Assembly (NCBI GenBank): GCA_947626785.1
Contig: CANQTO010000014.1
Location: forward strand, 1-60,604
Direction: 5' to 3'
Source: an uncultured Oscillospiraceae bacterium
GTDB lineage: Bacteria; Bacillota; Clostridia; Oscillospirales; Oscillospiraceae
DNA: 60,604 nt
The stretch's first letter is position 1, and each line of letters starts with the position of its first letter. The notes below the pieces were generated by a model. It was not told the DNA's origin and ran no database searches. It saw only the letters and a list, made by a program, of their open reading frames with translations. Made by a program: the position numbers and the translations under genes. This document shows positions 46,606 through 60,214 of this stretch, in pieces.

Positions 46606-48426
46606 TCACGCTTCCGGTAGGTCCGGTCTCAGGCCCTTCAGGACCAGGACCTCGAAGCCCGCCTGCTTGCCCTTCAGGGGCACGGAATCGCCCAGAGAGC
46701 TCACGGCGGCCCGGCCCCCCAGAGCGCCGGCTACGGCCCGGGAGATGTAGATCGTGCCGCCGGGGGCGTTGGCCTCCAGGCGGGCGGCGGTGTTCACCGT
46801 GTCGCCGATGGCGGTGTAGTCCATGCGCTTGGGGGAACCCACGTTGCCCACCACGGCCTCGCCCAGGTGGATGCCGATGCCGAAGGACACCGTCCGGCCG
46901 AATTCGGCCATCAGCTGCTCGGACAGGGCCTTGGAGCCCTCCACCATGTCCAGGGCGGCCCGGGCCGCCTGGAGCGCCGCGTCGGGGCAGGGCAGCGGCG
47001 CGCCCCAGAAGGCCATGGCCGCGTCGCCCACGAATTTGTCCAGAGTCCCGCCGTGCCGCAGGATGCAGTCCGAGATCAGGCTCAGATAGCGGTTCAGGAT
47101 CGCCACCACCTCCGTGGGGGAGAGCAGCTCCGACATGGAGGTGAAGCCCCGCACGTCCACGAACAGCACCGCGATCTCCGTCGTCTTGCCGGTCAGCTCC
47201 AGAGCGCCGGGGGTCTTCAGCAGCTCGCTGACGATCTCCGGCGCTACATAGCGCCGGAAGGTGGCCGTCACCCGGCGGGTCTCCAGGACCGACTGGACGT
47301 AGCTTGCCGCCAGGCAGCCCAGATAGAGCAGGGCCGCCCCCACCGGGACCCACAGCACATGGAGAAGGAGCCCCTGCTCCCGCAGGAGGGCGCAGAGCCC
47401 CACCCAGCCCCCGGCCAGCACCAGCAGCGCCCCGGTGGAAAACAGGGCGTGGCGCTTCCAGAACAGGAAAAAGGCCAGCAGCAAAAGGGCGAACAGGGCG
47501 GCCAGCTGGGGCAGATCATTGACTTCCCGGAGAAAATCGCCCCGGAGGAGCGCCTCGACGGCGTTGGCCTGATACTCCACACCGTACATGGGCTCGGCGT
47601 GGTCCACGGCGGTCACGTAGCTGTCGCCCAGGCCGGAGGCGTAGGGGCCGATGAGCACGATCTTGCCCCGGAAATGGCTGGGAGGAACGGAGCCGTCCAG
47701 CAGACCGGCAATAGAGATGTCCTCGCTGTACGCCCCCGGCCGGCCGGTGAAGGGCAGGAGCCAGAAGCCCCGGCTGTCCGTCTCCGGCAGCTGCGGCTCC
47801 GGCTGCCCCAGGGCCTCCTGATACTTCCGGGCCAGGGCCAGGGCGAAGGAGGGGACCTGACGCCCGTCGGGCAGAGACAGGCTGAGCAGGCCGCGGCGCA
47901 GGACCCCGTCGCTGTCCAGCATGGCGTTGACATGGCCCTGGACCGTGACCTGCCGCAGAGCCTCATAGGGCTCGTCGTAGCTCCGGGGCGCGAAGACGTC
48001 CAGAGTATAGCCCACGGCCCCGCCGGAGGGCGTCATGCTGCCGAACTGCGCCGCCGAGGCGGTGACCACGTTGCCGTACCGGCCCGCGGCCGCCGCCAGG
48101 GCGGCGTCCGCCTCCGGGGCAGACGCGCCGGTGAAGAGCAGGTCCAAGCCGATGACCGCGGGGCGGTCCTCCTCCGAGGCGTTCAACGCCTCCACCGCCC
48201 GGGCGAAGATCTCCCGGTCCCACTGGCTGTAGGGCCCCAGCTCCTCCAGGGCCCGCTGGTCGATGCCCACCAGAACGATCCCGCCCTCGGCGGACCGGGG
48301 CCGCTGGTAGAGCAGGTCGGCGGCGGCCCGGTCCGGCCGGTCCAGGACGCCCAGGCCCGCCAGCAGGGTCAACAGCGCCGCCGCCAGCAGGGCGGCCAGA
48401 AAGAGCGTCCGTTTCCGTGGGGCCAT
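46606..48426 (-). CDS. CHASE2-domain class III adenylate cyclase
   Basis: A 606-residue membrane-bound cyclase. One N-terminal membrane segment (FLAALLAAALLTLLAGLGVL) precedes an extracellular CHASE2 domain (IVLVGIDQRALEELGPYSQW, RPAVIGLDLLFTG, FRGKIVLIGPYASGLGD). Three membrane helices then lead to the class III catalytic domain. The metal-binding aspartates are in AVLFVDVRGFTSMSELLS and DKFVGDAAMAFWGAPLP. The base-recognising and transition-state residues are in MDYTAIGDTVNTAARLEANA (Asn and Arg present). All catalytic residues seem intact, so cAMP production is likely. It follows the first LRR gene by 50 bases and is the last gene of the minus-strand cluster. Confidence 0.93.
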   Translation of the reverse strand: MAPRKRTLFLAALLAAALLTLLAGLGVLDRPDRAAADLLYQRPRSAEGGIVLVGIDQRALEELGPYSQWDREIFARAVEALNASEEDRPAVIGLDLLFTGASAPEADAALAAAAGRYGNVVTASAAQFGSMTPSGGAVGYTLDVFAPRSYDEPYEALRQVTVQGHVNAMLDSDGVLRRGLLSLSLPDGRQVPSFALALARKYQEALGQPEPQLPETDSRGFWLLPFTGRPGAYSEDISIAGLLDGSVPPSHFRGKIVLIGPYASGLGDSYVTAVDHAEPMYGVEYQANAVEALLRGDFLREVNDLPQLAALFALLLLAFFLFWKRHALFSTGALLVLAGGWVGLCALLREQGLLLHVLWVPVGAALLYLGCLAASYVQSVLETRRVTATFRRYVAPEIVSELLKTPGALELTGKTTEIAVLFVDVRGFTSMSELLSPTEVVAILNRYLSLISDCILRHGGTLDKFVGDAAMAFWGAPLPCPDAALQAARAALDMVEGSKALSEQLMAEFGRTVSFGIGIHLGEAVVGNVGSPKRMDYTAIGDTVNTAARLEANAPGGTIYISRAVAGALGGRAAVSSLGDSVPLKGKQAGFEVLVLKGLRPDLPEA

Positions 48427-48476
48427 GATCTATACGCTTCCTTCCTTGCTGTGAATGGGGTTTGTCTACAGTCTGA

Positions 48477-51326
48477 TTACGGCTCTATCCCCAAGAAAGC
48501 GGGGTCAAAACGGGCGGGGATGTCCTGGGCGGTCAGCGAGGTTATGGAGAAAGCATTTTCGCCGATGGAGGTGACGCTGTCGGGGATCGTCACGCTGGTC
48601 AGGCTCGAGCATCCAGAGAAAGCCTCTTGACCGATGATCGTCACACTCCCCGGGATCGTTACACTGCTCAGACTCGAACACCTATCGAACGCGTTTTCGC
48701 CGATGCTGGTCACACCTTCCAAAATTGTTATGCTGGTCAGGCTCCTGCACCACGAGAACACACTGCCTCCAATGCTGGTCACACTCCCCGGGATCGTTAT
48801 GCTGGTCAGGCTCCTGCACCACGAGAACGCACTGCCTCCAATGCTGGTCACACTCCCCGGGATCGTTACACTGGTCAAGCTCGAACATCTAGAGAAAGCC
48901 TCGTGACCGATGAGCTTCACGCTTTCCGGGATCGTTACACTGGTCAGGCTCGAACATCCGTAGAACGCACAGTCGCCGATGCTGGTCACACTCCCTGGAA
49001 TCGTTATACTGGTCAGGCTCGAACATCCGTAGAACGCCCAGCCGCTGATGCCGGTCACGCCTTCCGGGATCGTCACATCGTTCTCGGAGCCATAATATCC
49101 ATAGAGCACAGAATGAACGATCACGAACCCCCGCTCGTTCGCCAAGCTTACACATCCGCAGAATGCTGCATCACCGATACTGGTCACACTTCCCGGGATC
49201 GTCATGCGGGAAAGGTTCCCGCAGCCGTGGAACGCCCAGTCGCCGATGCGGGTCACGCTTTCAGGGATCGTTACACTGGTCAGGCTCTTGCAACCCCAGA
49301 ACGCCCAATCGCCGATGTAGTGCATACTCTCCGGAATCGTCAAGCTGCTCAGACTCGAGCATCCGCAGAACGCCCGTTCGCCGACGCTGGTGACGTTCTC
49401 CGGGATCGTCACACTGGTCAAACGCCCGCACTCCTCAAAAGCCCGGTCGCCAATGATCGTCACGTTTTCCGAGATCCTTACGCTGGTCAGGCTCGAACAG
49501 CTGCGGAATATTCCAGGGCCGATGAAGGTCACGCTCTTCGGGATCGTCGCGCTGGTCAGGTTCGTGCAGTTGGTAAAGGCATCTTGACCGATGCCGCGCA
49601 CACCCTCCGAAATGACCACGCTGGTCAGGCCTGAACATCCATAGAAAGCCTCGTGACCGATGAGAGTCACGCTTCCCGGGATCGTTATGCCGGTCAAGCT
49701 CGAACGTCCATAGAAAGCCCTGCTGCTGATGAGGGTCACGTCCTCCGGGATCTCCACAGCATTCTCGGAGCCGTAATATCCGTATAAGGCAGAATCGATG
49801 ATCACAAAACCATGATCGTCCATCAACCTTGTACAGCCTATAAACGCGTTCGCGCCAACTGACGTCCGACCCTTTGATATCGTCACGCTGGTCAAACTCT
49901 CGCACCCCTCGAAAGCCCTGTTGCCGATGCGGCTCATGCTCTTCGGGATCTCCACATGGGTCAGGCTCGAACATCCTTCGAATGCCTTGGTCCCGATGCC
50001 GCACACACCTTCCGAGATCGTCGTGCTGGTCAGGCTCGAACATCCACTGAACGCCCGGTCGCCGATGGAGGTGACGCTGTCGGGGATCGTCACGCTGGTC
50101 AGGCTCGAGCATCCAGAGAAAGCCTCTTGACCGATGATCGTCACACTCCCCGGAATCGTTACACTGGTTAGGCTCGAACACCCAACGAACGCGTTTTCGC
50201 CGATGCTGGTCACACCCTCCAGTATCGTTATGCTGGCCAGGCTCCTGCACCACGAGAACGCACTGCCTCCAATGCTGGTCATACTCCCCGGGATCGTTAC
50301 ACTGGTCAAGCTCGAACATCCGCTGAACGCACAGTCGCCGATGCTAGTGACGCCCTCCGGGATCGTTATACTGGTCAGGCTCAAACAATCGCGGAACGCT
50401 TCATCGTCGATGCGGGTTACGCTTTCGGGGATCCTTACGCTGGTCAGGTTTTTGCACCCCTTGAACGCTCTTTCCCCGATGCTGGTCACACTTTCCGGGA
50501 TGATCACGCCCGTCATGCTCTCACAATCATCGAACACCCCGTTGTCGATGCGGGTCACGCCTTCCGGGATCGTCACCACATTCTCGGAGTCATAGTATCC
50601 ATAGAGCACAGAACCCACGATCACGAAACCACGCTCGTCCATCATGCTTACGCACCCGCAGAACGCCGCGTCGTCGATATTCGTTACGCTCTTCGGGATC
50701 GTGACATGGGCAAGGCTCTCGCAACTCGAGAAAGCCATGTAGCCGATGTCCGTCACGCTTTCCGGGATTGTAACACTGGTCAAACTTTTGCAATCCTCGA
50801 ACGCGTTTTCGCCGATGCTGGTCACACCTTCCGGAATCGTTACACTGGTCAGGCTCGAACATCTGCTGAACGCCCAGGCACCGATGCTGGTCAAGCTTTT
50901 GGGAAGCTTTACGCTGGCAAGTCTTTTGCAGCCGAGGAACGCTTCATTGCCGATGCGGGTCACTCCCTCTGGGATCGTTACGCTGGTCAGCCCCTCGCAT
51001 CCGTAAAACACCCCATAGCCGATGCCGGTCACTCCCTCCGGGATCGTCACGCTGGTCAGGCTCTTGCACCCCGAGAACGCATGGCTTCCGATGCTTGTCA
51101 CACTTTCCGGGATCGTCAAGCTGCTCAGACGTGAGCATCCGCCGAACGCGCTTTCACCGATGCGGGTCACACCCTCCGGGATCATTACACTGGTCAGGCT
51201 CGCGCAATTGCTGAACACCCCGTCTCCGATACTGGTCACGCCCTCCGGGATCGTTACATTCTTTTCCCGGCCCACATATTTTTCTAATACGCCATCTTTT
51301 ATGATAAAATCGCCCATGTCTCCCAT
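48477..51326 (-). CDS. LRR_5 (BspA-type) leucine-rich repeat protein 1
   Basis: A 949-residue protein made almost wholly of 23-residue LRR_5 units (pattern CSSLTSVTIPESVTSIG plus AF). There is no signal peptide, membrane helix or wall anchor: it starts MGDMGDFIIKDGVLEKYVG. The repeat run is punctuated by three internal copies of a cap-like module (GFVIVGSVLYGYYDSENVV and relatives), homologous to the N-terminus itself. The end (QDIPARFDPAFLGIEP) resembles the tail of the FecR-LRR lipoprotein. GGAGGGG is 6 bases before ATG 51326; the longer open frame begins in the shared leader. It has its own promoter-like site and lies upstream of the cyclase. LRR_5 proteins typically bind proteins; the partner is unknown. 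Confidence 0.88.
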   Translation of the reverse strand: MGDMGDFIIKDGVLEKYVGREKNVTIPEGVTSIGDGVFSNCASLTSVMIPEGVTRIGESAFGGCSRLSSLTIPESVTSIGSHAFSGCKSLTSVTIPEGVTGIGYGVFYGCEGLTSVTIPEGVTRIGNEAFLGCKRLASVKLPKSLTSIGAWAFSRCSSLTSVTIPEGVTSIGENAFEDCKSLTSVTIPESVTDIGYMAFSSCESLAHVTIPKSVTNIDDAAFCGCVSMMDERGFVIVGSVLYGYYDSENVVTIPEGVTRIDNGVFDDCESMTGVIIPESVTSIGERAFKGCKNLTSVRIPESVTRIDDEAFRDCLSLTSITIPEGVTSIGDCAFSGCSSLTSVTIPGSMTSIGGSAFSWCRSLASITILEGVTSIGENAFVGCSSLTSVTIPGSVTIIGQEAFSGCSSLTSVTIPDSVTSIGDRAFSGCSSLTSTTISEGVCGIGTKAFEGCSSLTHVEIPKSMSRIGNRAFEGCESLTSVTISKGRTSVGANAFIGCTRLMDDHGFVIIDSALYGYYGSENAVEIPEDVTLISSRAFYGRSSLTGITIPGSVTLIGHEAFYGCSGLTSVVISEGVRGIGQDAFTNCTNLTSATIPKSVTFIGPGIFRSCSSLTSVRISENVTIIGDRAFEECGRLTSVTIPENVTSVGERAFCGCSSLSSLTIPESMHYIGDWAFWGCKSLTSVTIPESVTRIGDWAFHGCGNLSRMTIPGSVTSIGDAAFCGCVSLANERGFVIVHSVLYGYYGSENDVTIPEGVTGISGWAFYGCSSLTSITIPGSVTSIGDCAFYGCSSLTSVTIPESVKLIGHEAFSRCSSLTSVTIPGSVTSIGGSAFSWCRSLTSITIPGSVTSIGGSVFSWCRSLTSITILEGVTSIGENAFDRCSSLSSVTIPGSVTIIGQEAFSGCSSLTSVTIPDSVTSIGENAFSITSLTAQDIPARFDPAFLGIEP
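50408..50760. repeat. Block nearly identical to part of the neighbouring LRR gene
   Basis: This block matches 52325-52677 in LRR gene 2 at a constant offset of 1,917 bases. By eye about nine differences occur in a 310-base core, far fewer than in flanking repeats. It covers several LRR units and one cap module. This looks like recent gene conversion or segment duplication. Confidence 0.8.
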
Positions 51327-51350
51327 AAAAGTCCCCTCCTTTTCCAGCCT

Positions 51351-51370
51351 GGCATTTCTTATTACGGAAG
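51351..51370 (-). promoter_or_regulatory. Shared LRR leader element, copy 1
   Basis: CTTCCGTAATAAGAAATGCC on the minus strand, separated by exactly 24 bases from the start codon at 51326. The same 20 bases occur at the same distance in front of the other three LRR genes (52992-53011, 55039-55058, 56423-56442). Confidence 0.75.
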
Positions 51371-51415
51371 TTCTCGTCATATTTCCACACATTATTTAGT
51401 AAAGCTCTTTATCTA

Positions 51416-51444
51416 AGGATACCGAAAGACATTTCGGCTGTCAA
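51416..51444 (-). promoter_or_regulatory. Promoter-like site of LRR gene 1
   Basis: TTGACA (51444-51439), 17 bases and TATCCT (51421-51416) on the minus strand, giving a leader of about 85 bases that contains the shared element. Confidence 0.6.
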
Positions 51445-51476
51445 GGGTATTGGCGGATAAACAACGAATATCAACT

Positions 51477-52967
51477 TTACAATAATTCATCGCAGCCCTG
51501 GAACACGTTTTCCCCCAGGCTCGTCACGCTCTCCGGCACTTTTGCATGGATAAGGTTTTCACAGTACGAAAACGCCCGGTTGCCGATGGCCGTCACCCCT
51601 TCCGGGATCGTCACGCCGGTGAGGTTCTCGCAGCAAGCAAACGCATCGTCGCCGATGGCCGTCACCCCCTCCGGGATCGTCACGTGGGTCAGGTTCTCTC
51701 GACACAAGAACGCGCCGATACCGATGCGTGTTACTCCCTCCGGGACCGTCACATCGTTCTCGGAGCCATAATATCCGTATAAGACGGAATCGATGATCAC
51801 AAAACCATGATCGTCCATCAATCTTGTGCAGCCCATAAACGCATTCGCGTCAACGGACGTCCGTTCCTTTGATATCATCACGCTAGCCAGGCTCTCGCAT
51901 CTGTAGAATACGCCGAAGCCAATGCTGGTCACGGTCTCCGGGATCGTTATATTGGTCAGGCTCGTGCAATCCGCGAACGCCAAGTCGCCGATGTGGGTCA
52001 CTGTCTCCGGGATCGTCACGCTGGTCAGGCTCTTACACTCCCTGAACGCTTCAGCGTCGATGCTGGTCACGGTCTCCGGGATCGTTATATTGGTCAGGCT
52101 CGTGCAATCCGCGAACGCCAAGTCGCCGATGCGGGTCACACCCTCCGGGATCGTCACATCGTTCTCGGAGCCACAATATCCATAGAGCACAGAATCCTCG
52201 ATCATGAAACCATGATCGTCCAACGTGCTTTTATACTCGCGGAACAGTATGCCGCCGATATTCGTTATGCTCTCTGGGATCTCTATTTGGGTAAGGCTTT
52301 CGCACCCCTCGAACGGGTTGTCGCCGATGCGGGTCACGCTTTCAGGAATTTTCACGCTGGTCAGGTTTTTGCACCCCTTGAACGCCCTTTCCCCGATGCT
52401 GGTCACACTTTCCGGGATGATCACGCCCGTCATGCTCTCACAGTCATCGAACACCCAGTTGTCGATGCGGGTCACGCCTTCCGGGATCGTCACCACATTC
52501 TCGGAGTCATAATATCCATAGAGCACAGAGCCCACGATCACGAAACCACGCTCGTCCATCATGCTTACGCACCCGCAGAACGCCGCGTCGCCGATATTCG
52601 TTACGCTCTCCGGGATCGTGACATGGGCGAGGCTCTCGCAGCTCGAGAAAGCCATGTAGCCGATGTCCGTCATGCCCTCCGGAAATGTCGCGCCGGTAAG
52701 GGCCAAACACTCACAGAACGCGAAGGCCCCGATGCTGGTCAAGCTTTTGGGAAGCTTTACGCTGGCAAGTCTTATGCAGCCGTGGAACGCGTTGTCGCCG
52801 ATGCGGGTCACTCCTTCTGGGATCGTTACGCTGGTAAGCCCCTCGCATCCGAAAAACACCCCGTTGCCGATGCCGGTCACTCCCTCCGGGATCTCCAGAT
52901 CCTTTTCCCAGCCCAAATATTTCTTTAGTTCTCCCTTTTCTATGATAAAGTCGCCTAAGTCGCTCAT
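51477..52967 (-). CDS. LRR_5 leucine-rich repeat protein 2
   Basis: A 496-residue LRR_5 protein beginning MSDLGDFIIEKGELKKYLG, with no export signal. Four cap-like modules are present, counting the N-terminus (for example GFMIEDSVLYGYCGSENDV), separated by runs of two to six repeats. The C-terminus ends in an LRR unit (ENVFQGCDELL) and lacks the ARFDP-type tail of proteins 1 and 4. A block of about 350 bases is nearly the same as in LRR gene 1. GAAGGAG precedes the start. The 24-base spacing between leader element and start codon is kept, although the bases in between differ from the other copies. Confidence 0.88.
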   Translation of the reverse strand: MSDLGDFIIEKGELKKYLGWEKDLEIPEGVTGIGNGVFFGCEGLTSVTIPEGVTRIGDNAFHGCIRLASVKLPKSLTSIGAFAFCECLALTGATFPEGMTDIGYMAFSSCESLAHVTIPESVTNIGDAAFCGCVSMMDERGFVIVGSVLYGYYDSENVVTIPEGVTRIDNWVFDDCESMTGVIIPESVTSIGERAFKGCKNLTSVKIPESVTRIGDNPFEGCESLTQIEIPESITNIGGILFREYKSTLDDHGFMIEDSVLYGYCGSENDVTIPEGVTRIGDLAFADCTSLTNITIPETVTSIDAEAFRECKSLTSVTIPETVTHIGDLAFADCTSLTNITIPETVTSIGFGVFYRCESLASVMISKERTSVDANAFMGCTRLMDDHGFVIIDSVLYGYYGSENDVTVPEGVTRIGIGAFLCRENLTHVTIPEGVTAIGDDAFACCENLTGVTIPEGVTAIGNRAFSYCENLIHAKVPESVTSLGENVFQGCDELL

Positions 52968-52991
52968 AAGAGTCCACTCCTTCCCGAGTCA

Positions 52992-53011
52992 GGCATTTCT
53001 TATTACGGAAG
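52992..53011 (-). promoter_or_regulatory. Shared LRR leader element, copy 2
   Basis: Same 20-base sequence as copy 1, again 24 bases upstream of the start codon (52967), although the bases between element and start have diverged here. Confidence 0.75.
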
Positions 53012-53169
53012 CTCTATGCGGTTTTCGCGGGATAAAGCGGCCGCCGGTATCGCCGTCTTCCGTTTCTATATACGCGGCATATACGATTTTCTCCCCCCGG
53101 CTGGGCCGGAGGGAGAAAGACTTTAAATGGAAAAGAAGGTATAAGATCCCGGCGATTTTAGAGGCACGT

Positions 53170-55014
53170 TTACAACAATTTTACGCAGCCCCGGAACACA
53201 TTTTCCCCCAGGCTGGTGACGCTCTCCGGGATCGTCACATTTGCGAGGTCAACGCATCCGCGGAAGGCCGAATCGCCGATGGCCGTCACGCTTTCCGGGA
53301 TGGTCACATGGGCGAGACGTTTACACCCATCGAATGCCCTGGCGCCGATGGTCGTCACGCCTTCTGGGATCTCAACACAGGTCAGGCTCTCGCACATCCA
53401 AAATACCTCGTCACCGATGCGGGTCAAACCTTCCGGGATCGTCACACTGGCCAGGCGCGTACACCTATCGAAGGTTCCGTCGCCGATGCCGGTCACGTTC
53501 GCCGGGATCTCAACACAGGTCAGGCTTTCGCATCCATAGAAAGCCCAGTCGCCGATGCTGGTCAAATTCTCCGGGAGCGTCACGCCGGTCAAGTTCGAAC
53601 ACATCCAGAACGCATGGCCGCCGATACTGGTCACGGTTTCCGGGATCTCGACATAGGTCAGGCTCTCGCAATCGCGGAATGCCCCGTTGCCAATGCGGAT
53701 CACACCCTCCGGGATCGTCACATCGTTCTCGGAGCCATAATATCCGTATAAGACGGAATCGATGACCACAAAACCAGAAGCGTCTATCAAGCTTGTACAC
53801 CCGCAAAATGCCGCGCTGCCGATACCGGTCATGCTCCCCAAAATTTCTACATGGTTCAGGCTCTCGCAACCGATGAACGCTTTTTTGCCGATGGTTGTCA
53901 TGCTCTCCGGGATCGTGATGCTGGTCAGGCTCACACATCCACAGAACACCTCGCCCCCGATGCGCTCCACGCCATCCGGGATCGTGATGCTGGTCAGGCT
54001 CGAACAATCGCGGAACGCGAAGTCCCCGATGCCGGTCACGGTACCCGGGATCGTCACGTGGGCAAGGCTTTTGCAGCCGCGGAACGCACTGTCGCCGATG
54101 CGGGTCACGCCATCCGGGATCGTGATGCTGGTCAGACTCACACATCCATAGAAAGCCCCGTCGCCGATGCGCTCCACGCCCTCCGGGACCGCTATGCTGG
54201 TCAGGCTCGAACAATCGCGGAACGCGAAGTCCCCGATGCCGGTCACGGTGCCCGGGAGCGTCACGTGGGCAAGGCTTTTGCAGCCGCAGAACGCACTGTC
54301 GCCGATGGAGGTGACGCCCTCCGTGATCTCCGCGTGGGTAAGACCTTCACAACGATAGAACGCCATTTCACCGATGCAGGTCATATTCTCCGGGATCGTC
54401 ACGCTGGTCAGGTTTACGCAGCCGGCGAATGTCCCGCCGCCGATGCAGGTCACGCTCTCCGAAATCGTCACGCTGGTCAGGTTTATGCAGCCGGCGAACG
54501 CCCCTTCACCGATGCGGGTCACCCCATCCGGGATCGTCACGTCGTTCTCGCGGCCGTAATACCCATACAGCACAGAATTTACGATCACGAAACCCCGGCC
54601 GTCCATCAGGCTTACGCAGCCTGCGAACGCCCTGTCGCCGATGTTGGTCACACTTTCCGGTATCGTCAGGCTGTTCAGGTTCTCGCAGCCCTCAAACGCG
54701 CTTTCACCGATGGAGGTCACCCCATCCGGGAGCGTTATGCTGGTCAGGCTCTTGCAGAATGAAAAAGCGCTTTTGCCAATGGAGGTTATGCTTTTTGGGA
54801 TCGTTATACTGATCAGGCCCTCGCAGCCATCAAACGCGCTTTCGCCGATGCTGGTGACGCCTTCTGGGATCTCCACATGGGTCAAACTCCTGTGGTTACG
54901 GAACACATGGTCCCCGATGCGGGTGATGCCCTCCGGGATCGTCACATCGTTCTCGGAGCCCACATATTTTTTCAATTCTCCATCTTCTACTACAAAATCG
55001 CGCATGGTTTCCAT
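53170..55014 (-). CDS. LRR_5 leucine-rich repeat protein 3
   Basis: A 614-residue LRR_5 protein starting METMRDFVVEDGELKKYVG, without signal peptide or anchor. Three cap-like modules (the N-terminus and two internal, such as GFVVIDSVLYGYYGSENDV) alternate with repeat runs. A stretch of three LRR units is tandemly duplicated: 53931 onward is repeated 207 bases later (3 x 69). It ends like protein 2 (ENVFRGCVKLL). GGAGGAG lies 6 bases before ATG 55014. Its first 29 residues match protein 4 at all but two positions, indicating a recent duplication of the 5' part with its leader. Confidence 0.88.
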   Translation of the reverse strand: METMRDFVVEDGELKKYVGSENDVTIPEGITRIGDHVFRNHRSLTHVEIPEGVTSIGESAFDGCEGLISITIPKSITSIGKSAFSFCKSLTSITLPDGVTSIGESAFEGCENLNSLTIPESVTNIGDRAFAGCVSLMDGRGFVIVNSVLYGYYGRENDVTIPDGVTRIGEGAFAGCINLTSVTISESVTCIGGGTFAGCVNLTSVTIPENMTCIGEMAFYRCEGLTHAEITEGVTSIGDSAFCGCKSLAHVTLPGTVTGIGDFAFRDCSSLTSIAVPEGVERIGDGAFYGCVSLTSITIPDGVTRIGDSAFRGCKSLAHVTIPGTVTGIGDFAFRDCSSLTSITIPDGVERIGGEVFCGCVSLTSITIPESMTTIGKKAFIGCESLNHVEILGSMTGIGSAAFCGCTSLIDASGFVVIDSVLYGYYGSENDVTIPEGVIRIGNGAFRDCESLTYVEIPETVTSIGGHAFWMCSNLTGVTLPENLTSIGDWAFYGCESLTCVEIPANVTGIGDGTFDRCTRLASVTIPEGLTRIGDEVFWMCESLTCVEIPEGVTTIGARAFDGCKRLAHVTIPESVTAIGDSAFRGCVDLANVTIPESVTSLGENVFRGCVKLL

Positions 55015-55038
55015 AAAAGTCTCCTCCTTTTCCGGCCT

Positions 55039-55058
55039 GGCATTTCTTATTACGGAAG
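55039..55058 (-). promoter_or_regulatory. Shared LRR leader element, copy 3
   Basis: Identical 20-base core, 24 bases upstream of ATG 55014. The whole region around 55025-55190 resembles 56409-56570. Confidence 0.75.
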
Positions 55059-55120
55059 CTCCTCTCAAATCTCCATGCGTTATTTTTACCTTAGAAAGAT
55101 AGGATCTGTGCGCTTCCGAT

Positions 55121-56398
55121 TTATTCGGGTCTCACTACCCCCACCGCGACCGGGTCAAAACGGGCGGGGATGTCCTCTGCGGTCAGCTGGGTACCGTCGA
55201 AAGCGTCTTTGCCGATGGAGACGACGCTGTCGGGGATCGTTACGCTGGTCAGACTCACACAATCGCGGAACACCCAGTCGCCGATATGGGTCACACTTTC
55301 CGGAATTTTCACGCTGCTCAGGCTCTTGCAGCTCATGAACGCCCCGAAGTCGATACGGGTCACGCTGTCGGGGATCGTCACGCGGGCCAGGCTTACGCAG
55401 CCCTCGAACGCCCCAATGCCGATACGGGTCACGCCCTCTGGAATGATCAAGCTGGTGAGGCTCAAACAATAGCGGAACGCCACGTCTCCGATGGAGGTGA
55501 CGCCTTCCGGGATCTCGATGTGGATCAAGTTCGAACATTTCTCGAACGCCCAGTCGCTGATGGCTGTCACTCCCTCTGGAATCGTCACATCCTTTTCGCA
55601 GCCATAATACCCATATAGCACAGAATTCACGATCACGAAACCCCGATCGTCCATCATGCTTTTGCATCCGCGGAACGCCGCGTTGCCGATGGAGGTGACG
55701 CACTCCGGGATCGTCACCTGGGTCAGGCTCGAACAGCCCTCAAATGCGCAGTTGCTGATGCTGGTCACGCCTTCTGGGATCGTCACATCCTTTTCGCGGC
55801 CAAAATATCCATATAGCACAGAATTCACGATCACGAAACCCCGATCGTCCATCATGCTTTTGCATCCGCGGAACGCCCCGCCTCCGATGGAGGTGACGCA
55901 CTCCGGGATCGTCACCTGGGTCAGGTTCTCGCAGAATGAAAACGCATGGTCGCCGATGGTTATCGCTCCCCCTGGGATCGTCACGCTGGCGAGGCTCTTG
56001 CAATCCCAGAACGCCCCCTCGCCGATGGAGGTGACGCTCTCCGGGATCGCCATGCTGGACAGGTGCTCACATTCTGCGAACGCAAGGCTGCCGATAGCCG
56101 TCACGCCCTCCGGGATCGTCACGCTGGCGAGGCTCTTGCAACCCCAGAACGCATAGTCTCCGATGGAGGTGACGCTCTCCGGGATCGTCACGCCGGCGAG
56201 GTTCTGACAACCAAAGAACGCGCATTCGCCGATGGAGGTGACGCCTTCCGGGATCGCCACCTGGGTCAGGCTCTCGCAGATATAGAATGCCTCGTCGCCG
56301 ATGCTGGTCACGCCCTCTGGGATCGTCACATCGTTCTCGGAACCCACATATTTTTTCAATTCTCCATCTTCTACTACAAAATCGCACATGGTTTCCAT
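55121..56398 (-). CDS. LRR_5 leucine-rich repeat protein 4
   Basis: A 425-residue LRR_5 protein starting METMCDFVVEDGELKKYVG, without export signal. Internal cap modules GFVIVNSVLYGYFGREKDV and GFVIVNSVLYGYYGCEKDV lie 198 bases apart in a duplicated segment. Its last 21 residues (TAEDIPARFDPVAVGVVRPE at the end) are the same as those of the upstream FecR-LRR lipoprotein, and the DNA of both 3' ends is almost the same, so the two genes share a common 3' segment. It begins about 100 bases after the lipoprotein's stop codon and may be cotranscribed with it. Confidence 0.88.
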   Translation of the reverse strand: METMCDFVVEDGELKKYVGSENDVTIPEGVTSIGDEAFYICESLTQVAIPEGVTSIGECAFFGCQNLAGVTIPESVTSIGDYAFWGCKSLASVTIPEGVTAIGSLAFAECEHLSSMAIPESVTSIGEGAFWDCKSLASVTIPGGAITIGDHAFSFCENLTQVTIPECVTSIGGGAFRGCKSMMDDRGFVIVNSVLYGYFGREKDVTIPEGVTSISNCAFEGCSSLTQVTIPECVTSIGNAAFRGCKSMMDDRGFVIVNSVLYGYYGCEKDVTIPEGVTAISDWAFEKCSNLIHIEIPEGVTSIGDVAFRYCLSLTSLIIPEGVTRIGIGAFEGCVSLARVTIPDSVTRIDFGAFMSCKSLSSVKIPESVTHIGDWVFRDCVSLTSVTIPDSVVSIGKDAFDGTQLTAEDIPARFDPVAVGVVRPE

Positions 56399-56422
56399 AA
56401 AAGTCTCCTCCTTTTCCGGCCT

Positions 56423-56442
56423 GGCATTTCTTATTACGGAAG
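56423..56442 (-). promoter_or_regulatory. Shared LRR leader element, copy 4
   Basis: Identical 20-base core, 24 bases upstream of ATG 56398, in the gap behind the FecR-LRR lipoprotein gene. Confidence 0.75.
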
Positions 56443-56497
56443 CTCTTCTCAAATTTCCGCTTTTAAGAAAGATAGGCTCTGGGTGCTTCCTTTCGAT

Positions 56498-57841
56498 TTA
56501 TTCGGGTCTCACTACCCCCACCGCGACGGGGTCAAAACGGGCGGGGATGTCCTCGGCGGTCAGGCTGGTGTAGCTGAAAGCGCTTTCTCCGATGGAGGTG
56601 ACGCTGTCGGGGATGCTCACCCGGCTCAAATTGAAGCAGGAGCCAAAAGCGCCGCGCTCGATGGTGGTGACGCCGTCCTGGAGCACCAGATCGGTCAAGC
56701 CCATGCAGCTATGGAAGGCGACCGCTCCAATGGTCCGAACGCTGCCGGGGATGACCAGCTCGGTCAAACCGTTGCAGTCAACAAAGGCCTGTTCTCCGAT
56801 GGACGTGACGCCGTCGGGGATCACCACCCGGGTCAAAGCGGTGCATCCAAAGCAGGTATTCTCCTCAATGGAGGTGAGGCCGGCGGGGAACACAAGCTCA
56901 GTCAGGCCGGAATCGGCAAAGGCCTGCTCGCCGATGTATGTGATGCTGTCAGGGAGCGTCAATTCTGTCAGACTGCTGCACCCTGCGAAGGTGTCTGACT
57001 CAATGGAAGTGACGCTGTCCGAAATCTGCACCTGGGTCAAGTTGGTGTAGCCGGTAAACCAGCCGGGCCCGATCTCTGTGACACCGTCCTGGATGACCGC
57101 AGAGCGGATCTCCTCCTGCCGCCCGTCCCAGGGAACTTCCCAGACGGGCCCAAAGATCGTCAGTACGCCGTTTTCCAGAGTCCAGTTAGCTGTGACATCC
57201 ATCCCGGTGACAACCCGAATGACGGCAGCCAGGAACTCATCCTCCCGCAACTCAACAGAGACGAAGGCGGGGATATCGGCGGCAGAGAACACCTCCACAG
57301 TGACGGTGCTGTCCGCGGCGCTGAGGGCGGCCCTCTGGCCGGCGGGGACGGACTTGGTCACGCCGCCCACGGAGCACTCCACCGTGCCCTCCAGGATGTA
57401 CACGTTCATGTGCCTGGCGTCGGGCACCTCCACCCAGCCGCAGGTGCCCCGGATGGCGGTGACCATATCGGAGGAGCGGATCTCCAAAGTCTCATCCGCC
57501 GCCAGGGGCTGGGTCACGTTGAAGAACAGAGAGCCGCTGTTGACGGTCAGGACCAGGTTTTTGCCGTCCTTTTGGACTTCCACGTCGCTGTTCTCGTCCA
57601 TCTTGGTCAGCTTTGTCTCGTCCAGGTCGATCCAGCCGTAGCTGGCCGCTTGGGTGCTGACCCCGTAGCCGCTGAAGAGGCCCAGCCGGCCGGTCAGGGC
57701 CACGGCGGTCCCCTCGCCGTCGGTGACGGCCACGGAGCCCTCGGTCTTCACCAGCCACATACTGGCGGCCTTCGCCCCGCCGCAGGCGGCGCAGGACAGC
57801 AGCAGGGCAGAGGCCAGGAGCATACAAAAAAAGCGTTTCAT
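56498..57841 (-). CDS. FecR-domain lipoprotein with C-terminal LRR_5 repeats
   Basis: A 447-residue exported protein. The signal (MKRFFCMLLASALLLSCAAC) has a lipobox-like LLSC. Residues about 28-190 form a FecR-type domain (LVKTEGSVAVTDGEGTAV, WIDLDETKLTKMDENSDVEV, VTAIRGTCGWVEV), a beta-rich fold that in other settings senses envelope signals. The second half (about 230-447) consists of LRR_5 units ending in the tail also found in LRR protein 4. It starts within ATGA, overlapping the HD-GYP gene stop, with GGGGAGG nearby. It is the only exported member of the LRR set here, so it could present at the cell surface what the others bind inside; that is speculation. Confidence 0.88.
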   Translation of the reverse strand: MKRFFCMLLASALLLSCAACGGAKAASMWLVKTEGSVAVTDGEGTAVALTGRLGLFSGYGVSTQAASYGWIDLDETKLTKMDENSDVEVQKDGKNLVLTVNSGSLFFNVTQPLAADETLEIRSSDMVTAIRGTCGWVEVPDARHMNVYILEGTVECSVGGVTKSVPAGQRAALSAADSTVTVEVFSAADIPAFVSVELREDEFLAAVIRVVTGMDVTANWTLENGVLTIFGPVWEVPWDGRQEEIRSAVIQDGVTEIGPGWFTGYTNLTQVQISDSVTSIESDTFAGCSSLTELTLPDSITYIGEQAFADSGLTELVFPAGLTSIEENTCFGCTALTRVVIPDGVTSIGEQAFVDCNGLTELVIPGSVRTIGAVAFHSCMGLTDLVLQDGVTTIERGAFGSCFNLSRVSIPDSVTSIGESAFSYTSLTAEDIPARFDPVAVGVVRPE

Positions 57842-59277
57842 TTTTCGTCCTCCCCGGCTTCCCAGCACCGGCTGGCCTCGAACTGCTCCAGCAGTTCTGC
57901 GTCCAGCCGCCCCTGGGCGGCCATATCCTTTAAAATAGCCAACGCCACGGGGACCGGTTTGCCCGCCTTGTAGGGCCGGTCGGAGGCCACCAGGGCGTCA
58001 AAAATGTCCAGAATGGTGATGATGCGGACCTCCTCGGGGATCTGGTCCCCGCTCAGATGCTCGGGGTAGCCCCGGCCGTTGAGCAGCTCGTGGTGGCTGG
58101 CCGCCCACTGGCGCACATGGGACAGGTTCCGGGAGAAATGGATCTGGGACAGCAGCCGGTCGGTGAGGACCACGTGGTTCTCCATGATCTGCCGCTCCTC
58201 CGGGGAGAGGGTGCCGCCCCGGATGGACAGCATCCGCCGCTCCTCCTCCGTCAGCCAGGGGCGGACAGAGCCGTCCGCCTCGGTGTAGCTCCGCCCGGCC
58301 AGGGCGTCCACCCGGGCCAGCTGCCCCTCGTCCAGCCGGTCGGCGGTGTCGATCTCCTCGATAAAGCGCTGGGCGGCGAAGGTGTCCGCCTTCAGGGCTT
58401 CCAGCTCCTCCGGCGTGGCGCGGCCCCGGAGACAGTCGATCTCCCCCCGCAGGCGGATGAGCTCCAGCCGGTGAAAGACGGCGTCGCGCTGCTCCGGCCG
58501 CAGGCGGCCGGCCTTGTTCATGACCTCCAGGGGGGTGACCAGCTTGCCCACGTCGTGGAGCCAGACGCTGGTGAGCAGCTCCTCCCGGCGGGCGGCGTCG
58601 AAGCGCTCATAACCGGCGCTCTCGTTCAGATAGTCCAGGAAGCGGCCGCAGTAGGCCGCCATGTGCCGGGTGTGGCTGGCGTTGTAGGGGGTCAGCTCGC
58701 CGATGGCGGCGGACATGACCCGCACGAAGGAGTGGAACAGCTCATGGATCTCCTCCACATAGCGCACATTCTGGACGGTGACCGCCGTCTGGGAGGCCAC
58801 CGACTCCAGCACCAGGGTCATATCGGCGGGGAAGGGGACCACCGCGCCGCTCTCATCCAGGGCGTTGATCAGCTGTAGGACCCCCAGCTTTTCCCCCTCC
58901 CGGCCGATCATGGGCACTACCAGCATGGAGCGGGTCCGGTAGCCGGTCTGGGCGTCGTACTGGAGAGGGCCGGTGAAGTCGCACTCCCGGTTCTCGTACA
59001 CGTCGTCAACAGAGACGGTGCGGCCCTCCAGAAAGGCCAGGGCGCAGACGTTCTCCCGGCTCAGGGGCACCGGCGGCAGGGTCCCGATGGGGCGGGAGCG
59101 GTTCCGCATGAGCTTGAAGGCCAGTTTGTCCCCCTCCAGCAGATAGAGAGTGCCGGCGTCGCAGCGGGCCAGGTCCATCACGCAGTCCAGCGCCCGGGCC
59201 AGGAGCTTGTCCAAATCCCGCTCGGAGGAGAGCATCACGCCCACCTCTAAAATATTCTGAAATTCCTGTTGCGTCAT
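57838..59277 (-). CDS. GAF-HD-GYP cyclic-nucleotide phosphodiesterase
   Basis: A 479-residue cytoplasmic signalling enzyme. A GAF domain (residues about 10-170, CDAGTLYLLEGDKLAFKLM, MLVVPMIGREGEKLGVLQLI) would bind a small ligand. The HD-GYP domain follows, with H241-D242 in VWLHDVGKLVTPLEVMNKAG, HHELLNGRGYPEHLSGDQIP (residues 395-414) and IITILDIFDALVASDRPYK. HD-GYP proteins usually hydrolyse cyclic-di-GMP; the G-Y-P triad is intact, although the first Asp of the usual DGxGYP is Asn. The gene overlaps both neighbours by 4 bases (ATGA), which implies tight coupling with the MBL protein before it and the FecR-LRR lipoprotein after it. Confidence 0.93.
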   Translation of the reverse strand: MTQQEFQNILEVGVMLSSERDLDKLLARALDCVMDLARCDAGTLYLLEGDKLAFKLMRNRSRPIGTLPPVPLSRENVCALAFLEGRTVSVDDVYENRECDFTGPLQYDAQTGYRTRSMLVVPMIGREGEKLGVLQLINALDESGAVVPFPADMTLVLESVASQTAVTVQNVRYVEEIHELFHSFVRVMSAAIGELTPYNASHTRHMAAYCGRFLDYLNESAGYERFDAARREELLTSVWLHDVGKLVTPLEVMNKAGRLRPEQRDAVFHRLELIRLRGEIDCLRGRATPEELEALKADTFAAQRFIEEIDTADRLDEGQLARVDALAGRSYTEADGSVRPWLTEEERRMLSIRGGTLSPEERQIMENHVVLTDRLLSQIHFSRNLSHVRQWAASHHELLNGRGYPEHLSGDQIPEEVRIITILDIFDALVASDRPYKAGKPVPVALAILKDMAAQGRLDAELLEQFEASRCWEAGEDEK

Positions 59278-60071
59278 AGTTCGATCTCCGTCCTCTCTTT
59301 GGCAAAGATGCAGGCGCTGCCGGTCCGGGCGGCGTCCCGTTCCAGCTCTTGCAGCGCCCGGTCGTCCAGATCCCGGGCATAATGGGCCATCAGCACCCGT
59401 TTTGCCCCAGCCTCCCGGGCCAGGGCCGCCCCCTGGACCCAGCTGGAGTGCCCCCAGCCGGGCTTTTCCTGCCTGGGGGGAAAGTTTGCGTCCCAGACGA
59501 TCAGATCGGCCCCCTGGGCGAAGCGTAAAAGCTCCGGCCGCCGGGCCGGGTCCGGCTCACAGTCCAGCAGATAGACAAGGGACTTGCCGTCCAGGTCCAG
59601 CCGGTACCAGAGGCAGCCGCCCGGGTGGCTGCCCTCCATGGCGGAGAGCAGGGCCCCGCCGTTCCCGGCCAGGCGGAAGGACTTGCCGGGCCTTACCCGG
59701 TGGAGACGGACGCCGTCCAGAAGGGACAGGGGCCAGTAGGGCGGGGAGAGCAGCGTTTTCAAACTGTCCAGAGCGGCCCCGCCGTACAGGTGGACCTGCC
59801 GCTCCGGCCCGAGGGCGCTCAGAAAGGGAAACAGGCCCAGCACGTGGTCCAGGTGGGCGTGACTCAGAAGGATGTGGACGCTCTTGATGCCCTCCCTCCG
59901 CCGGAGCCAGTCGCCAAGGGGGGCGAGGCCGGAGCCGGCGTCAAACACCAGCAGCTCCTCTCCCAATTGGAGGGAAAAGCAGGAGGTGTTCCCGCCGTAG
60001 CCGAGGAAGTCCGCCCCGGCCACGGGAAAGGAGCCCCGGACGCCCCAGGGGATCAGTTTCAGAGTATGCAA
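59274..60071 (-). CDS. MBL-fold hydrolase, cyclic-nucleotide-phosphodiesterase-like
   Basis: A 265-residue metallo-beta-lactamase-fold protein. The start IPWGVRGSFPVAGADFLGYG and GNTSCF are characteristic of the MBL subgroup that includes 3',5'-cyclic-nucleotide phosphodiesterases and GAF-linked MBL proteins. The metal motif is H71-A-H-L-D75-H76, with later ligands in AMEGSHPGG, DANF and LMAHYARDLD. It is the first gene after the consensus promoter and overlaps the HD-GYP gene by 4 bases. With a cyclase at the far end of the cluster, hydrolysis of cAMP is plausible but untested. Confidence 0.87.
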   Translation of the reverse strand: MHTLKLIPWGVRGSFPVAGADFLGYGGNTSCFSLQLGEELLVFDAGSGLAPLGDWLRRREGIKSVHILLSHAHLDHVLGLFPFLSALGPERQVHLYGGAALDSLKTLLSPPYWPLSLLDGVRLHRVRPGKSFRLAGNGGALLSAMEGSHPGGCLWYRLDLDGKSLVYLLDCEPDPARRPELLRFAQGADLIVWDANFPPRQEKPGWGHSSWVQGAALAREAGAKRVLMAHYARDLDDRALQELERDAARTGSACIFAKERTEIEL

Positions 60072-60094
60072 GGCAAAGCCTCCCTTTTATACAG

Positions 60095-60134
60095 CACAGA
60101 CGCCGTTGCGGGTCCCTCCACAACGGCGTCTGTG
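60095..60134 (-). other. Leader hairpin of the MBL/HD-GYP/LRR cluster
   Basis: CACAGACGCCGTTG (60095-60108) and CAACGGCGTCTGTG (60121-60134) form a perfect 14-bp stem with a 12-base loop inside the roughly 105-base leader. No T-run follows on either strand, so a regulatory or stabilising role is likelier than termination. Confidence 0.65.
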
Positions 60135-60184
60135 TACAGAAATAGTCAAAAAATCAGGCAGATCTACACGTTTCCGTTTCAAAT

Positions 60185-60214
60185 ATTATATGCCGCGCCG
60201 GCGGGCCCTGTCAA
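60185..60214 (-). promoter_or_regulatory. Consensus promoter of the MBL/HD-GYP/LRR cluster
   Basis: Perfect TTGACA (60214-60209), 18 bases and perfect TATAAT (60190-60185) on the minus strand. The -35 box overlaps the stop codon of the upstream MATE gene. Confidence 0.85.

Follow-up and report, generated by a model that had tools for sequence, protein, structure and literature searches.

What holds together a bacterial locus in which an adenylate cyclase with an extracytoplasmic CHASE2 domain, a putative cyclic di-GMP (c-di-GMP) phosphodiesterase and a row of leucine-rich repeat (LRR) genes follow one another on one strand? The window analysed here is contig C14, positions 1 to 60,604, of a 2.75-Mb draft genome (98 contigs, 99% complete) of an uncultured Oscillospiraceae bacterium. 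Positions 46606 to 60071 are taken up by eight minus-strand open reading frames (ORFs), all of which were confirmed, in the order metallo-beta-lactamase (MBL) hydrolase, GAF-HD-GYP protein, FecR-LRR lipoprotein, four stand-alone LRR_5 genes and CHASE2 adenylate cyclase. An original prediction had treated the eight genes as a single module: signals would be sensed at the envelope, a cyclic nucleotide would be both made and degraded, and the LRR proteins would serve as binding partners or inhibitors. Judged from sequence, the locus is real, and its conserved core consists of the MBL hydrolase, the GAF-HD-GYP protein, the extracytoplasmic FecR-domain protein and the CHASE2 adenylate cyclase. We propose, giving the idea about even chances, that this conserved part is a transmembrane receptor with a relay from cyclic AMP (cAMP) to c-di-GMP, and that the LRR array is a lineage-specific expansion.

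The core was delineated by comparing loci that encode related cyclases. The cyclase query matched 31 of 300 genomes of the family, 25 of them across both the CHASE2 and the catalytic domain, and 23 of 102 genomes of the genus, eight across both domains (rows counted by hand in either case). From a scan of one genome per species the best 80 of at least 573 relatives were retained, and these 80 come from Clostridia or unspecified bacteria. Pooling yielded 116 full CHASE2-cyclase loci, or 107 after removal of nine duplicates. The loci were selected by cyclase similarity, and many are parts of draft bins that end at contig edges; profiles were derived from the same loci, gene calls were simple ORFs, and GGDEF and cNMP domains were searched with single sequences, some of the GGDEF matches being unrelated neighbours. 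Neighbours were counted up to 12 kb from the cyclase; at 8 kb the focal locus itself counts as partnerless because its array displaces the partners.

Within 12 kb, FecR is found in 71 of the 107 loci, MBL in 70 (MBL-GAF-GGDEF fusions score low with the MBL profile and are partly lost from this count), HD-GYP in 67 and GGDEF in 18. Either c-di-GMP enzyme occurs in 82 loci, in 15 of these as GGDEF only; FecR, MBL and a c-di-GMP enzyme stand together in 47 of 107, and at least one of FecR, MBL, HD-GYP, GGDEF or a propeller protein is present in 102. For the 55 loci with at least 5 kb on both sides, the corresponding numbers are 43 for FecR, 43 for MBL, 41 for HD-GYP, 13 for GGDEF, 51 for HD-GYP or GGDEF, 32 for the three together and 53 for any partner including the propeller. 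The partners also share the strand of the cyclase almost without exception (60 of 61 FecR, 41 of 41 MBL and 37 of 38 HD-GYP genes within 8 kb, 55 loci). Twenty-two control regions totalling 389 kb, 20 from cyclase-bearing genomes and two from the focal stretch, contained no cyclase, MBL, HD-GYP or LRR match, one FecR, one GGDEF and five propeller matches. Two isolates, Bacilliculturomica massiliensis (L104) and Lachnospiraceae bacterium P6A3 (L075), possess all four core genes.

The catalytic residues of these proteins are well preserved. In the cyclase, D424, K464, D468, N545 and R549 are kept in all 107 loci and D536 in 106, with a single glutamate; we take these positions to be the two metal aspartates, the purine-related lysine (K464) and aspartate/threonine (D536), and the transition-state asparagine and arginine. 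We assign the focal protein as a CHASE2 class III adenylate cyclase, predicted to form cAMP from ATP. Among 36 HD-GYP proteins picked by hand for alignment, H202, H241, D242, H368, H395, H396, G403-P405 and D424 are invariant. The predicted structure of the GAF-HD-GYP protein (mean predicted local distance difference test score, pLDDT, 90.2) matched 4mcw first, followed by the GAF domains of PDE2A and PDE5A, DvhD, the Lcd1 GAF domain with cAMP, and CyaB2, other GAF domains ranking lower; a profile search agrees with these matches to cyclic-nucleotide GAF domains. The HxHxDH motif is present in all 66 MBL homologues from the loci that score above 150 bits. Naming the focal MBL protein as a known cyclic-nucleotide phosphodiesterase was rejected, the match to NF041851 reaching 30.6 bits against a cut-off of 400 and all 14 NCBIfam models listed for it falling below their cut-offs. 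The four non-LRR genes recur together in many Clostridia and retain their catalytic residues, and to that extent gene neighbourhood supports the original view of a putative module for envelope sensing and for making and destroying a cyclic nucleotide.

The receptor role falls to the FecR-domain protein. The domains that the original prediction had assigned to the locus were recovered with Pfam, except that PF04773 (FecR) is not named in the focal 447-residue protein at E<=0.001. We retain the FecR assignment because relatives in other loci (L048, L061, L075, L104, L175, L177 and L179) exceed the cut-off and because the predicted fold resembles PupR and BDI_1681: the model (mean pLDDT 88.6) retrieved LRR proteins, with the anti-sigma regulators BDI_1681 (4m0n) and PupR (6ovk) ranking below them. 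Many of the FecR proteins begin, by eye, with signal peptides, membrane anchors or lipobox-like motifs, some N-termini being incomplete. A comparison of 91 FecR domains from 69 loci gave a median identity of 77% within a locus (31 pairs, 13 loci) versus 36% between loci (4064 pairs), and clustering the C-termini of these 91 proteins gave 48 groups, of which 36 have a single member. What tells against a simple reading of these values is that both members of 14 of the 31 within-locus pairs are closer to a copy in another locus, so that part of the likeness within loci reflects near-sister loci. The sequences nonetheless retain the contrast of a constant FecR domain with a variable C-terminal part. 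LRR_5 forms the C-terminal part in nine of 94 FecR ORFs, and InlB-type repeats and an NHL-FecR-GLUG fusion are found in others. In genome G071, a FecR protein lies on a separate contig (L199:7291-9285) and the cyclase locus (L127) is without a partner, the partner possibly being encoded apart.

An NHL/S-layer propeller protein forms a blastp cluster in 34 loci, at most three genes from the cyclase and always on its strand. We did not count it as a core part, its profile having also matched in the control regions, probably via S-layer domains. Such propeller proteins (for example L104:10720-12375 and L085:11804-13324) have a signal-peptide-like start and often S-layer domains, and in L177 NHL is fused to FecR.

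Several loci carry different outputs. In L029/L177, CHASE2 is fused to HD-GYP and adjoins the NHL-FecR-GLUG protein. CHASE2 fusions to a SpoIIE-type PP2C domain lie beside a FecR gene in three loci (L170:12113-14056, L173:7302-9233 and L174:6977-8923), and in L170 this FecR gene also belongs to the cyclase set; the fusions suggest another output for the FecR-CHASE2 sensor pair. In L176, a cyclase and an MBL gene are followed by cNMP-GGDEF and cNMP-DUF2225 proteins and by a third protein that scores 52 bits with the FecR profile without matching any Pfam family. An MBL-GAF-GGDEF protein follows the cyclase in L083, L093, L098 and L111, and a GAF-GGDEF gene precedes MBL in L080 and L095. L095 also encodes a second class III cyclase, of the HAMP type (L095:1720-4578), upstream of its GAF-GGDEF, MBL, FecR and CHASE2-cyclase set.

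We propose the following model for the system. The extracytoplasmic FecR protein would use its variable C-terminal part (LRR_5 in the focal locus) to bind a ligand, and its constant FecR domain would act on the CHASE2 ectodomain of the adenylate cyclase. The GAF domain of the adjacent HD-GYP protein may sense the resulting cytoplasmic cAMP, whereupon this protein would hydrolyse c-di-GMP, while the MBL hydrolase may clear cAMP and reset the system. The four stand-alone LRR genes would have arisen by tandem expansion of a cytosolic-type LRR_5 gene within the operon. Gene identity, the recurring neighbourhood, the kept catalytic residues, the constant FecR domain with its swapped C-terminus and the output variants are supported by the sequences themselves; we infer that FecR contacts CHASE2, that the GAF domain binds cAMP, that cAMP and c-di-GMP are the substrates and that a ligand acts from outside the cell.

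How firmly are the two nucleotides linked? The genes may form one functional set in which they are not chained, FecR/CHASE2 and MBL governing cAMP, the GAF domain of the HD-GYP protein binding something else, and the enzymes acting in parallel. A number of observations weigh against the relay, of which the incomplete GAF signature, the HD-GYP proteins without a GAF domain and the separate cAMP readers also speak for such a parallel arrangement. Co-location alone is no proof of a relay; FecR is absent within 12 kb from 36 of 107 loci, some of them ended by contig edges, and five loci (L035, L040, L092, L094 and L127) have no partner, L035 and L127 being well flanked. The HD-GYP part also matches a 3'3'-cyclic GMP-AMP phosphodiesterase, and c-di-GMP is for this reason a putative substrate only. 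The NKFDE-type GAF signature is only partly kept, N138 and F149 being invariant in 36 of 36 proteins and the lysine position mostly occupied by alanine. Pfam finds no GAF domain in the HD-GYP proteins of L103 (directly after the cyclase), L088 and L091 or in the second one of L131. Proteins with cNMP_binding domains, which could read cAMP separately, are encoded in 25 of 27 other cyclase genomes searched (G344 and G310 are without), and separate cAMP readers are therefore usual. The excerpted text on a cluster in Campylobacterota likewise mentions no c-di-GMP enzyme (PMC9239204). Parallel action is at odds with the cNMP domain that sits on a c-di-GMP enzyme in L176, with the joining of CHASE2 and HD-GYP in one protein and with the matches of the GAF domain to cyclic-nucleotide GAFs, and we consider it rather unlikely. 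The relay from receptor to cAMP to c-di-GMP is favoured because variants fuse CHASE2 to HD-GYP or PP2C, or cNMP or GAF domains to a c-di-GMP enzyme. In the focal genome, a genome search found no cNMP_binding protein and no EAL match, one GGDEF protein that also contains REC and HD-GYP domains, and two HD_5 matches over the cut-off with one below it.

What, then, is the LRR array? It looks like a lineage-specific tandem expansion, a local addition to the conserved locus. Each of its genes has a ribosome site (AAGGAGG at three, AAGGAGT at one) and is preceded by a similar leader repeat found nowhere else in the genome. No signal peptide was seen by eye in the four proteins; with LRR_5 but no export signal, they fall outside the BspA-type surface proteins. 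Their N-cap, DF.I..G.L.KY.G, recurs in 15 of 120 listed homologues, and two of these begin with a hydrophobic segment. Among the paralogues, the ratio of nonsynonymous to synonymous substitution (dN/dS) of 0.35-0.55 indicates that the genes have been kept as proteins, and a dS of 0.5-1.2 that the expansion is not very recent. The longest exact repeat in the region measures between 80 and 99 nt, which makes an assembly error unlikely; matches of 100% between adjacent genes in blastn were overlapping flanks and were disregarded. For the LRR proteins, related genomes yielded partial LRR_5 matches at 33-65% identity.

We lean slightly towards the array being a passenger: LRR_5 genes expanded in tandem, serving a separate role and sitting in this operon by chance. 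The restriction of the leader repeat to these four genes, the lack of a second array beside a CHASE2 cyclase among the examined loci and the existence of stand-alone LRR_5 proteins with the same N-cap fit this reading, although the array lies exactly between two genes that are adjacent in relatives and its genes are intact. The original supposition that the four soluble proteins belong to the signalling module and partner or inhibit the cyclase is improbable. In its favour, the array is flanked by the FecR and cyclase genes on the same strand, has ribosome sites and no intervening terminator-like site, and shows dN/dS values of retained proteins. On the other side, 12 of the other 106 loci contain a single LRR ORF without a FecR match, several of these ending at contig edges with their N-termini out of view, and none contains two; the nearest relative, L112, whose cyclase is 80% identical, has three FecR genes directly before the cyclase; strong LRR matches in six other cyclase genomes lie on contigs other than that of the cyclase in five, the sixth (G065) being the FecR-LRR receptor itself; and a second promoter-like site lies within the array. 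With no second array beside any cyclase among those 106 loci, the array was dropped as a core of the system. A still slimmer chance is that the array stores cassettes whose recombination with the FecR-LRR gene alters the LRR ectodomain of the receptor: the 3' end and intergenic DNA (87% over 273 nt) and the tail LTAEDIPARFDPVAVGVVRPE are common to the FecR-LRR gene and the first of the LRR genes, and FecR C-termini are exchanged between loci, yet each LRR gene has a start and a ribosome site of its own, and their dS values mark them as old.

The layout of the locus is given in Table 1. The consensus promoter of the original prediction was recovered, as was the coupling of the first three genes through 4-nt ATGA overlaps (MBL/HD-GYP and HD-GYP/FecR-LRR). 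Gaps of 99-202 nt separate the LRR genes and one of 50 nt sets off the cyclase gene; none of the three minus-strand terminator-like sites in the region lies inside these gaps. A single transcript is not certain because of the second promoter-like site; seven such sites were found in the region compared with 3.9 expected from shuffling. The leader of the operon folds with z = -5.05, none of 200 shuffles being equally stable, and its stem-loop is a possible operator or leader control element; it was not spotted by eye in the DNA upstream of relative L112. An RNA family within the stretch was dropped from consideration, with no Rfam match at gathering scores.

Table 1. Genes and candidate control sites of the locus, with positions in the window.
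Feature	Position	Strand	Basis or remark
Sigma-70-type promoter TTGACA-18-TATAAT, predicted	60185..60214	-	12/12 consensus positions
17-bp stem-loop in operon 5' leader, without T-run	60095..60134	-	fold of 60072-60184
MBL-fold hydrolase, putative cyclic-mononucleotide phosphodiesterase, 265 aa	59274..60071	-	PF12706; substrate inferred
GAF-HD-GYP protein, putative c-di-GMP phosphodiesterase, 479 aa	57838..59277	-	PF01590 and PF13487
FecR-domain lipoprotein with C-terminal LRR_5, putative receptor, 447 aa	56498..57841	-	LLSC lipobox-like motif; LRR_5; FecR by locus profile and predicted fold
Stand-alone LRR_5 protein, 425 aa, no signal peptide seen	55121..56398	-	ORF and Pfam; 3' end common with FecR-LRR gene
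Stand-alone LRR_5 protein, 614 aa, no signal peptide seen	53170..55014	-	ORF and Pfam
Stand-alone LRR_5 protein, 496 aa, no signal peptide seen	51477..52967	-	ORF and Pfam
Second promoter-like site TTGACA-17-TATCCT	51416..51444	-	10/12; precedes last LRR gene, inside array
Stand-alone LRR_5 protein, 949 aa, no signal peptide seen	48477..51326	-	start one codon off that used in domain scan
CHASE2 class III adenylate cyclase, 606 aa	46606..48426	-	PF05226 164.3 bits; PF00211 86.6 bits

What is the wider relevance of such a locus? To our knowledge, few cases are known of how CHASE2 domains are switched, and the loci suggest a rule: CHASE2 would be partnered outside the cytoplasm by FecR proteins, and both the ligand-binding parts and the outputs could be swapped. 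We tentatively suggest, at somewhat less than even confidence, a receptor system widespread in Clostridia, in which a constant FecR adaptor would be combined with exchangeable ectodomains (LRR_5, InlB-type repeats, NHL propeller and others) and exchangeable CHASE2 outputs (adenylate cyclase, HD-GYP and PP2C), the main form passing from cAMP to c-di-GMP within the locus. Other phyla already offer hints of the FecR-CHASE2 pairing; what would be new, if true, is the exchange of ectodomains and outputs together with the local relay. If the relay holds, a gut bacterium without a cNMP_binding protein, such as the present one, could use cAMP by passing the signal on to c-di-GMP.

Several known systems resemble parts of the proposed one, as far as excerpts of the papers cited here describe them. 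The CHASE2 class III cyclases CyaD1, CyaD2 and CyaK of Sinorhizobium meliloti work with NsrA and Clr (PMC13001267, PMC5498481) and, as we propose here, have a cAMP output and are driven via an extracytoplasmic partner. That partner, NsrA, is an outer-membrane beta-barrel and the reader, Clr, is CRP-like, whereas the FecR protein SMc02177 is a Clr target and dispensable for signal perception. In the BiofilmReg operon of Burkholderia contaminans, an exported FecR-domain protein adjoins a CHASE2 sensor as in our loci, but FecR is fused to LysM and CHASE2 to a histidine kinase, and the word cyclase is absent from the text of the paper (PMC5192318). FecR/PupR cell-surface signalling shares the FecR-type fold, as indicated by the matches of the predicted model to 6ovk and 4m0n; it differs in that no sigma factor or TonB-dependent receptor is present among the nine focal proteins scanned and in that the recurring partner is a CHASE2 protein.

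Enzymes of c-di-GMP metabolism that respond to cAMP are represented by Tlr0485 of Thermosynechococcus, a GAF-HD-GYP protein activated by cAMP, and by Lcd1 of Leptospira, a cAMP-responsive GAF-GGDEF protein (PMC8846402) whose GAF-cAMP structure is among the matches of the focal GAF domain; neither is named with a FecR partner, FecR occurring nowhere in that review. Bd1971 of Bdellovibrio is a c-di-GMP phosphodiesterase that directly senses cAMP, as proposed here, and does so with cNMP and EAL rather than GAF and HD-GYP domains (PMC6717892). The original prediction knew of no described system of this make-up, and full-text literature searches, which covered few subscription papers, turned up neither a description of the form found in Clostridia nor one of a c-di-GMP enzyme within such a cluster. 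The trio of FecR protein, CHASE2 cyclase and phosphodiesterase, by contrast, is prior art: in Campylobacterota, a CHASE2 cyclase is clustered with a cAMP phosphodiesterase, a FecR-domain protein and a TPR protein, proposed to act in one pathway (PMC9239204). This trio supports the pairing of FecR with CHASE2. Three of the four kinds of protein are encoded here if the MBL protein is a phosphodiesterase, with no TPR protein among the nine focal proteins scanned; the cluster belongs to another phylum, and the excerpted description names no HD-GYP, GAF, c-di-GMP branch, LRR ectodomain or MBL. The conserved locus varies a type of which Campylobacterota have already given a first view, adding a c-di-GMP branch and exchangeable ectodomains.

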